This document shows positions 15,607-18,604 of a stretch of DNA of 38,624 bases, piece after piece. The DNA is from Pseudomonadota bacterium (GTDB taxonomy: Bacteria > Oederibacteriota > Muellerivitia > Muellerivitales > Muellerivitaceae). How positions within the stretch are numbered: the stretch's first letter is position 1; the number at the start of each line of letters is the position of its first letter. The stretch covers positions 1 through 38,624 of the forward strand of contig JAJPJW010000200.1 in assembly GCA_021324075.1 (NCBI GenBank), in the 5' to 3' direction. The notes under the pieces were generated by a model. That model searched no databases. It was not told where the DNA came from and worked only from the letters and a program-made list of their open reading frames with translations. The position numbers and the translations under genes are program-made.

Positions 15607-15643
15607 ATCCCTGATTGCCGTTAGACAATCAGGGATTTTTGTT
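15607..15643 (+). terminator. Intrinsic terminator 2 of DUF3052 gene
   Basis: ATCCCTGATTG at 15607-15617 pairs perfectly (11 bp) with CAATCAGGGAT at 15626-15636 around an 8-nt loop, followed by TTTTTGTTT. A run of A just upstream of the stem makes it usable from the minus strand as well. Confidence 0.8.
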
Positions 15644-15681
15644 TGGTAATGGTGAGTATCGATTATTTTGAAAATAAAAAA

Positions 15682-15789
15682 GGCCGCACCCACCTGTTTA
15701 TCCTTTGGGAGAACAAACTGCTTCAGCTTGAGACTAAAGGCTTCGAAGCCACGGAGAGAGTTGTGGCTTTTCCTCGCGGAAGGTGCGGT
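15682..15789 (-). ncRNA. Structured element A (possible small RNA)
   Basis: CCGCAC at 15684-15689 pairs with GTGCGG at 15783-15788, enclosing a 105-nt unit. Inner hairpins visible on the minus strand are TTCC-GCGA-GGAA (GNRA-like loop), GCCAC/GTGGC, the 12-base palindrome GGCTTCGAAGCC, and GTTT-TCC/GGA-AAAC. The plus-strand flank AATAAAAAAGGCCGCAC reads on the minus strand as the end of a stem followed by six T, as at an intrinsic terminator, so minus-strand transcription is favoured. No known RNA family was recognised. Confidence 0.4.
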
Positions 15790-16082
15790 TGATTTCAATC
15801 TAGTAAGGGCGGAGGGGAATTCAAGGCGGGGGTTTCCCCCGAAACAAAAGCGCCCCGTCTCCCGTTTTCGTGAGGCCCCACCTATTCCGTTTCGGGCCGT
15901 TTCCGGGATGTCCGGATGGTTCAACCACAATTCTCGTGGAGACGAGGCGTTATTAAAATCATAGGGAGAAGCGGGAAAAGGATCAATGGGGCATAAATAT
16001 GTCCAAATGTCTTTCGGCATTTGGGCAGGGTGCATTGTCGATTGAGATTTTTAGATGTTTTTTTCAATACACCAATAAAAAA

Positions 16083-16191
16083 GGCCGCACGCTCCGGAAC
16101 TCCGGAGATCAGGGGCTCACCCAGCTTTTTGTGGTAGTGGCCCGTACTCTGATGGACAGTGCGACCGTCTTCATTTTCCTCCTGTGCGGGC
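16083..16191 (-). ncRNA. Structured element B (possible small RNA)
   Basis: This has the same closing stem as element A (CCGCAC 16085-16090 with GTGCGG 16184-16189), the same 105-nt span and the same 17-base flank, 401 bp further on. Inner structure is rich: CTCCGG 16092-16097 with CCGGAG 16102-16107; ATCAG 16108-16112 with CTGAT 16149-16153; and inside that GGGC-CAC-CCA (16113-16123) with TGG-GTG-GCCC (16132-16143). On the minus strand six T follow the unit. A 21-codon frame with AGGAGG lies inside (16109-16174). Confidence 0.45.
16109..16174 (-). CDS. Possible 21-residue peptide inside element B
   Basis: On the minus strand AGGAGG is followed after 3 nt by ATG and a 21-codon frame, MKTVALSIRVRATTTKSWVS plus P, then TGA. 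The stop falls right before the CTCCGG/CCGGAG hairpin and the T run, an arrangement seen in leader-peptide attenuators; it includes three consecutive Thr codons. No biosynthetic gene follows on that strand, and the spacing of the ribosome site is short, so this may be coincidence. Confidence 0.2.
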   Translation of the reverse strand: MKTVALSIRVRATTTKSWVSP

Positions 16192-16447
16192 TTTGCTCAA
16201 GAAAAATTTTAGAATCTTAAAAAATATTCAACGCATAAAACAAGCCAGAAAAATCGCGGCCTAAAAAATGAAAACCAAAAATTTTTCACAGCTTTGGAAA
16301 AAATGAGACGACCGACGTGATATCCACCCTTTCGTCCATTCAATCGGGAATTCAGGGAAAATCCGTCGCGGCCGACTCCAAAGTTTGGATGGGAGGACTC
16401 TTTCTTTTGAGCTATAACTAAGTTGTGGGTTAATCGAAAGGAAATTT

Positions 16448-18604
16448 TTGGAACGCGTTAAAAGGAAAAACACTTCGGTTTCTTGGCTTTTTCCGGCGGC
16501 CTTGGTCTTCGCGGCTTTGGGCCAATGGTTGATGGCCCAAAACCATGTTCCTGCAACCCTATTTCCCGCCTTGGCTTTTTACGGTTTGGCGCTTTATTTC
16601 GGCTGGACCGCCCTGAGATCCGAAAAAGCCGAATTTTTAAAAGAAAAAGCCATGCCGGCCCGAGTGGAATGGGTTTTCTTCAGCCTTCTCCTTGCTTTGG
16701 CCGCTTTCCTGCGGGTTTACAAACTGGACGAAATTCCCTCCGGCGTTTATTTGGACGCTTCCGGCCCCGCCCTTTACGCGTTGAAAATGCTTCATGAGGG
16801 TTTTCATCCCCCTTTCATGTTGCCGGCCTTCGCCGCCAATCCTTCTTACCTGGTTTATCTTTTGGCCTTTTGGTTCCGGTGGTTTTCCCCCACTCCGGAG
16901 CATCTTTTCCTCTTTTACGTCTTTTTCGCGGTGGCCGCCTTGCCCCTGGTTTATTGGACCTTCCGGCAATTGACGGGTCCCCGAACCGCCTTACTCACCC
17001 TTTACTTCATCGTCGTCATGCGGTGGCACCTGGTCTTCAGCCGGATGGGCTTCCGGGGCATTCAAGTGCCTTTTTACATGTTCGGAACGATGGCGTTTTT
17101 TCTTTACGGGCTAAAGCAAAGAAAAGCCTGGCCCTTCTTTGCGGCCGCCCTGTTTTTTACCGGAGGTTTATATACTTACCAGGCGTTCAAGGCCTTCCCC
17201 TTACTTCTCGTCCTATTGCTGGTTTACGAGTGGCACCGCGATCCGAAGGCGTTCAAAGCCCTTTTGAGGCCCCTTTTGGCTTCGGTTTTCTTGGGTTTCG
17301 CCCTGGCGGCGCCGCTCGTGCAGTACTGGGTTCAACAAGGCAGCCTGGGAACCCGGGAATCCGAACTTTTCATTGGAAAAACGGTGGTCGAGCAAAACAG
17401 CCTGCAGCCCCTGGTGGATAAATTCCTTCAAACAGCCCTCATGTTCAACCGGCAGGGCGAGGAACAGCCCCGGCATAACTTCAAGAATCACAGGATTTTG
17501 GACGATGTCACGGGAATGTTCTTTGTTTTAGGCTTGGGGTTGGCCCTCTGGAAACGGACGGAAAGGTCCTGCTATTACGCCCTTTGCGGATTCGCGGTCA
17601 TGAGCCTACCCGGATTGCTGTCCAACGAGGTCACCCAATCCCACCGGATGCTGGGAGCCCTGCCTTTCGTGGCTTTTTTTGCTTCCATCGCGGTCCTCTC
17701 CTGGCAGAGAGGAATGGAGGAGCGTTTTCCTTCCCTCCGTCCATGGCTTAGGGGACTGGTCGTGGGGCTCCTTCTTTTTGCCGCTGTGGATAACTTTAAA
17801 ACTTATTTCGTGGACCAGGCGGGCGACTACGATTGCTGGAGGGATTTCAGCATTGAAGCCACGACCGTGGGGGAAACGGTGTTAAAGCATCCGGATACGG
17901 TCTATTACCTGTCACCCGCCTTTTACCAGCATTTCACGGTTCAATACCTGGACTACTTCGAATCCAACCGTATCCATCCCCTGGACCTGGGCCAGATGAA
18001 CGGCCAGCCCCTGGATAACCAGCTTCACCGGGTTTGTTTCGTCCTGGATGAGGGAAAGAGCCCCACTTTGGACTTTTTGAAAGGCCTTTACCCCAACGGA
18101 ACGGAAAAGCCTTTCAAGGACCGCTATGGAAAGACCCTGGCTTTTTTTTACGACATTCCGGGGCCGGTCAAACCCCTTTCCTACCCGAAAGGCCTGGAAA
18201 GAGGGGAGAGTACCACGGGGGACCCGGATTCAAGCCGGGCCGCATTCGGGCGGCAAGTGGACCCCCTCATCAATTTCACGAATATCGGGGATCTGGGGGT
18301 GAGCCATCCGCCGGTTTGGGTGGTTTGGCGGGGGAAGATCCGGATTCCCCAAAGCGGTCCCTATGTTTTTTTCATCTTCTCCCGCGATCCCAGTGAACTC
18401 GACTTGGACCGCCGGACGGTCATGGCCGCCACCCAGGGCGGGAAGGGCGAGGCCCGGTTGACGGCGGGATGGCATTCCTTGGTCTTGCGTTGCCACCGGG
18501 AAAGCAACCCGGATGTGGCCCTGGATTTCCACCTTCTCTGGAAAAAGCCGGGGGATCCGCAATATTCAGTCGTCCCCAATTCCGCCTTTGGACCCGTTCC
18601 ATGA
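16448..18604 (+). CDS. GT39-like membrane glycosyltransferase with C-terminal PA14-like domain
   Basis: A 718-residue inner-membrane protein. The TTG start has AAGGA 5 nt upstream. About a dozen hydrophobic segments occupy residues 10-460. The first large periplasmic loop contains LDEIPSGVYLDASGPALYA, with acidic residues where GT-C enzymes of the PMT/ArnT group bind polyprenyl-phosphate sugar donors. The soluble C-terminal part ends in a domain with VWRGKIRIPQSGPYVFFIFS and LTAGWHSLVLRCHRES, the pattern of PA14 carbohydrate-binding domains (W-x-G at its start, G-x-Y-x-F strand). This suggests transfer of a sugar outside the membrane with glycan recognition by the tail; donor and acceptor are unknown. 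The stop overlaps the next gene's ATG (ATGA). Confidence 0.75.
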   Translation: MERVKRKNTSVSWLFPAALVFAALGQWLMAQNHVPATLFPALAFYGLALYFGWTALRSEKAEFLKEKAMPARVEWVFFSLLLALAAFLRVYKLDEIPSGVYLDASGPALYALKMLHEGFHPPFMLPAFAANPSYLVYLLAFWFRWFSPTPEHLFLFYVFFAVAALPLVYWTFRQLTGPRTALLTLYFIVVMRWHLVFSRMGFRGIQVPFYMFGTMAFFLYGLKQRKAWPFFAAALFFTGGLYTYQAFKAFPLLLVLLLVYEWHRDPKAFKALLRPLLASVFLGFALAAPLVQYWVQQGSLGTRESELFIGKTVVEQNSLQPLVDKFLQTALMFNRQGEEQPRHNFKNHRILDDVTGMFFVLGLGLALWKRTERSCYYALCGFAVMSLPGLLSNEVTQSHRMLGALPFVAFFASIAVLSWQRGMEERFPSLRPWLRGLVVGLLLFAAVDNFKTYFVDQAGDYDCWRDFSIEATTVGETVLKHPDTVYYLSPAFYQHFTVQYLDYFESNRIHPLDLGQMNGQPLDNQLHRVCFVLDEGKSPTLDFLKGLYPNGTEKPFKDRYGKTLAFFYDIPGPVKPLSYPKGLERGESTTGDPDSSRAAFGRQVDPLINFTNIGDLGVSHPPVWVVWRGKIRIPQSGPYVFFIFSRDPSELDLDRRTVMAATQGGKGEARLTAGWHSLVLRCHRESNPDVALDFHLLWKKPGDPQYSVVPNSAFGPVP

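Follow-up and report, generated by a model that had tools for sequence, protein, structure and literature searches.

A predicted cluster of three minus-strand small RNA genes, one with a sigma-54-type promoter, in a family of candidate phylum FCPU426

Several bacterial small RNAs, among them CrcZ, GlmY/GlmZ and Qrr, depend for their transcription on sigma-54, a sigma factor that responds to stress and nutrients, and the spacing GG-N10-GC is the geometry of a sigma-54 promoter. A second group, represented in Firmicutes by RsaE/RoxS and LhrC, consists of Hfq-independent structured small RNAs whose C- or CU-rich loops pair with Shine-Dalgarno sequences. The locus described here contains elements that resemble members of both groups. 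It lies in a 38,624-nucleotide stretch of DNA, referred to below as the window, which belongs to a 3.57-Mb genome assembly (G000) of an uncultured bacterium. The minus strand of the intergenic region analysed quite probably carries three clustered non-coding small RNA genes, each transcribed independently, in the order B, C, A. Their features, in the direction of the predicted transcription, are as follows.

16233 to 16247, minus strand: sigma-54 type (-24/-12) promoter of B, TGGCTTGTTTTATGC, with GG-N10-GC spacing
16176 to 16206, minus strand: predicted 5' leader hairpin of RNA B, with a purine-rich 3' arm, AGGAGGAAAAU
16083 to 16166, minus strand: core of RNA B, with closing stem P1 (GGUCGCAC/GUGCGGCC), arm P2-P3 and hairpin P4
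within 16083 to 16166, minus strand: arm P2-P3 of B, AUCAG/CUGAU and GGGCCACU/GGUGAGCCC, with a bulged A
within 16083 to 16166, minus strand: hairpin P4 of B, CUCCGG/CCGGAG
16077 to 16082, minus strand: U tract after P1, read from the sequence as the intrinsic terminator end of B
15958 to 15986, minus strand: sigma-70 type promoter of C from a promoter scan, TTGATC-17-TATGAT
15852 to 15948, minus strand: RNA C, with an 11-bp closing stem (GCCUCGUCUCC/GGAGACGGGGC) and inner hairpins
15842 to 15849, minus strand: T-rich tail after the C stem, TTTTGTTT in the sequence (TTTTTGTTT in G004)
15797 to 15824, minus strand: sigma-70 type promoter of A read from the sequence, TTGAAT-16-TAGATT
15682 to 15790, minus strand: RNA A, with closing stem CCGCACCU/GGGUGCGG and hairpins with CU-rich terminal loops (AACUCUCUCC; UCCCA)
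15676 to 15681, minus strand: U tract after the A stem, read from the sequence as its intrinsic terminator end (T-rich but variable in relatives)

B shares with CrcZ, GlmY/GlmZ and Qrr the -24/-12 promoter pattern, the intergenic position and the terminator at its end, but differs from them in lacking Rfam similarity, in its near-invariant multi-branch core and in showing no CA-rich Crc motif conserved across genomes. A resembles RsaE/RoxS and LhrC in being stable, terminated and intergenic, with unpaired CU-rich loops kept across genera; its fold is different, it too lacks Rfam similarity, and its pairing function is a prediction. A Pfam search for Hfq in the family genomes found none, which brings A closer to the Firmicutes RNAs and sets B apart from the sigma-54-dependent ones. 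6S RNA (RF00013) is also a single-copy structured RNA of a similar size order. Each of the eight family genomes has a separate 6S candidate elsewhere, which passes the Rfam cut-off in three of them and lies on another contig in G000, and this identity is disfavoured. The initial annotation had recognised no RNA family, which agrees with the searches: neither strand of the window has an Rfam match at the curated thresholds (gathering cut-off), none was found for B, C or A, and a relaxed search of the region gave chance-level matches only. A tRNA/tmRNA search found none.

Phylogenetic spread differs among the three elements, with B present in seven of the eight family genomes, A in four and C in two; all homologues (seven or fewer) fall within one family of candidate phylum FCPU426. 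For B, a DNA search and a covariance model match the same seven genomes, the model with one copy in each (E 1e-17 to 1e-23) and with no match in the other 38 genomes of the phylum. When about 85,000 genomes were scanned for a pattern, 40 stretches came out; the B model matches five of these, and all five belong to this family. The conserved closing stem pairs 16166-16159 with 16090-16083 over a span of 84 nt and is contained in the minimum-energy fold. With manual placement of the bulge, 187 of 189 pair cells are standard and one pair shows a two-sided compensatory change, G-C to A-U, in G003 and G007; RNAalifold on the automatic alignment reports zero such changes. A T-rich tail follows B in six of the seven genomes, and in the seventh (G005) a separate strong terminator lies just downstream. 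A 5' leader hairpin is predicted in every genome, and in most of them its 3' arm is the conserved purine tract while its 5' arm is changed, but the RNAalifold consensus does not report it as a helix.

The interiors of A and B had been described as full of hairpins, and the properly bounded elements do fold more stably than dinucleotide shuffles. B reaches z=-3.2 in the window and -2.9 to -4.2 across its seven genomes, and A reaches z=-3.5 in the window and -3.2 to -3.5 across its four. The opposite strand folds more weakly in nearly all copies; for B in G005 and C in G004 the two strands are about equal. Moreover, G-U pairs in the conserved stems are A-C mismatches on the opposite strand, so that those of B favour the minus strand.

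Upstream of B, the GG-N10-GC element (TGGCCCGTTTTATGC type) is invariant in all seven genomes, and its GC lies 66-68 nt from the core in each, placing the putative transcription start at about 16221. A gene for the sigma-54 factor (RpoN, PF04552) is present in all eight family genomes, and B is probably under sigma-54 control. The -12 box reads ATGC, one base off the TTGC consensus. Upstream of the -24 box the genomes share only A/T- and G-rich words, with no conserved activator site seen. Genome-wide, the -24/-12 pattern occurs 23 times against 11 in a reversed control, a modest enrichment (about twofold) in which most matches lie inside open reading frames. A consensus sigma-54 site, TGGCACG-N4-TTGC, was observed in G000 at C164:17168-17182 (L154), 38 nt upstream of a permease-like open reading frame with an AGGAGG ribosome-binding site. 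In the mechanism proposed for B, an enhancer-binding protein would activate the sigma-54 polymerase, and the RNA would be made under nitrogen- or nutrient-type signals.

The resulting transcript would be about 145-150 nt long, comprising the 5' hairpin and a three-way-junction core, and would act in trans through this nearly invariant fold. Conserved positions of B are mostly paired and its terminal loops are variable, which makes action through the fold likelier and antisense pairing a poor model. A bolder and rather unlikely proposal is that B represents a new class of sigma-54-controlled structured RNA, whose three-way-junction core binds a protein or metabolite and does not act as an antisense RNA, and whose purine-rich 5' hairpin is able to compete with P4.

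C, the element between the other two, would be a sigma-70-type small RNA of about 100 nt, with a predicted start near 15951. It is intact in G004, a member of another genus, where the counterpart of its promoter (TTGATT-17-TATGAA) occupies the same place and where two compensatory pairs are found. These pairs are supportive but not decisive, with only two sequences compared and 113 of 500 shuffles reaching the same compensatory count. Folding against dinucleotide shuffles gives z -3.85 (window) and -3.6. A search of the family with the C model gives no further strong copy, and its weak matches are taken as chance. Between A and B of G001 (L004) just the 3' half of C is left, and none was detected in G002, which suggests a recent decay of C within the genus.

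A has four homologues with a mean column identity of 94%, found by a DNA search and by a covariance model with strong matches in four genomes; a weak model match in G014 (E=0.016) is taken as chance. Its promoter reads TTGAAA-16-TAAATT in G001 and G002 and is present in a weaker version in G004. The promoters of C and A end about 7-10 nt before their respective elements, and the start of A would lie at about 15790. CCGCACCU/GGGUGCGG is confirmed as an invariant closing stem, and all pairs of A are kept, with no two-sided compensatory pair among the four homologues. Homologues with compensatory changes, named as a check in the initial annotation, are found for C (two pairs, across two genera) and B (one pair), but not for A; that B has one such pair and A none reflects sequences too conserved for the test. 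The CU-rich loops of A are nearly invariant, and unpaired and accessible in all four genomes. According to the proposal, A (about 115 nt) would be an Hfq-independent antisense regulator, whose exposed hairpin loops (CUCUCUCC, UCUCCCA) would reduce the translation of target mRNAs by pairing with their Shine-Dalgarno sequences. This anti-Shine-Dalgarno action is a tentative reading of the loops, plausible but with the balance slightly against it.

A and B had at first been taken for two matched elements. The strings on which that view was based are exact: AATAAAAAAGGCCGCAC occurs at 15673-15689 and 16074-16090, CCGCAC/GTGCGG pairs at 15684/15788 and 16085/16189 with a span of 105 nt each, and GAGGAAAA and the six-T runs are present on the minus strand. 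As a closing stem, CCGCAC/GTGCGG is real for A, but in B it arises by chance, since relatives have not retained the CCGCAC that precedes AGGAGG; the stem conserved in B is GGUCGCAC/GUGCGGCC. That both spans measure 105 nt is therefore a coincidence, and so is the location of GAGGAAAA immediately within the supposed stem of B. Likewise, the 17-mer is exact in the window, but comparison with relatives reduces it to the common GUGCGGCC followed by T-rich tails of varying sequence. The covariance model of A does not detect B, nor that of B detect A; the two are therefore not copies of one element, and their treatment as paralogues was rejected. Three elements are present and not two, and A and B differ in RNA family, promoter type and phylogenetic spread. 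Of the suggestion that they are paired small RNAs, the part supported is that of terminated minus-strand small RNAs, which fits the cross-genus conservation, folding, promoters and T tracts; the idea of a matched pair does not fit. Base pairing between A and B of the same genome is not clearly better than shuffled.

Terminator-like small hairpins of the type CCCAAATGTCTTTCGGCATTTGGG were also observed in the window (16003-16024 and 15607-15636) and in L007 (about 1068-1093, 1438-1463 and 1508-1536). Such hairpins are found repeatedly in the intergenic DNA of several family members, possibly as an interspersed family of terminators or repeats.

The genomic neighbourhood bears on what kind of elements these are. 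A conserved membrane-protein gene precedes B on the same strand in G003, G004, G005 and G007. This arrangement favours the view that the elements are parts of upstream mRNAs, either terminators or structures of the 3' untranslated region, with B belonging to the membrane-protein gene, possibly processed into 3'UTR-derived small RNAs. However, B and its promoter motif persist in the window's genome, where a close copy of that gene was not found, and in G001, where the gene is farther from B, behind a divergent glycosyltransferase-like gene. The fixed promoter-to-core distance of 66-68 nt points instead to a start site of B's own, and three successive ends would be redundant, which leaves this explanation improbable. 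In the window's genus a large gene for a glycosyltransferase-like membrane protein adjoins B (window 16448-18604; G001:C87:3549-5675), and in G001 it separates B from the membrane-protein gene that other genera have immediately before B. G006 is the family genome without B; it keeps the membrane protein and a DUF3052-type gene with no B between them. This interval contains a very short frame, rich in lysine and equipped with a good Shine-Dalgarno sequence (L169:229-284), and a similar lysine-rich frame occurs near B in G007 (L007, about 1200-1255).

On the other side of the cluster, the gene downstream of B, C and A lies on the opposite strand (convergent) in every genome examined, and encodes a DUF3052-type protein in the window's genus, a GNAT protein in G003, G004 and G007 and a DUF6498 protein in G005. 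This arrangement weighs against the possibility, also raised in the initial annotation, that the elements are cis-acting leaders or riboswitch-like attenuators, in which a sensed ligand would determine whether transcription into the downstream gene is terminated or continued. The almost invariant, multi-branched and aptamer-like core of B, with a terminator at its end, would suit such a role, but no genome examined has a same-strand gene directly after the cluster, and with the next gene on the opposite strand nothing is left to control in cis. As B keeps its position but not its neighbour, it is not a leader, and no Rfam riboswitch match was found; the elements are very unlikely to act in this way. 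Still less probable is that B encodes a small protein: in the window genome its leader reads AGGAGG-AAA-ATG followed by a 20-codon frame, a good Shine-Dalgarno sequence and start codon, but the other genomes lack the ATG (AAUAAA, AGAUA), and the frame is disrupted by indels. The proposal that the elements are the ends of a lost mobile element, or a MITE- or REP-like repeat, rested on the flank and stem common to two elements within a single intergenic region and is scarcely credible, given one strong copy of each per genome, stable position and conserved order, vertical distribution, different interiors, models without cross-matches and the lack of any match to phages or plasmids.

B, C and A are thus best read as three independent trans-acting small RNAs. 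Their location, conservation and structure, together with the lack of a same-strand gene directly downstream, are read directly from the sequence. For each element a promoter-like sequence is placed so that the start falls at the element, and a terminal stem is followed by a T-rich tract. The intergenic units are conserved and hold no conserved reading frame. Each RNA would have its own promoter and its own Rho-independent end, and transcription and function of the three are inferred. They are real features of an ordinary kind, bacterial small RNA genes, and are new as RNA families; of most interest is B, for its sigma-54-type promoter and its near-invariant core. A literature search on small RNAs in candidate phylum FCPU426 found no paper. 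If the reading is correct, three RNA families would be new to this phylum, and the predicted sigma-54 control of B offers a direct condition to test. Together, the three RNAs suggest that trans-acting RNA regulation may operate in a lineage without a recognisable Hfq.
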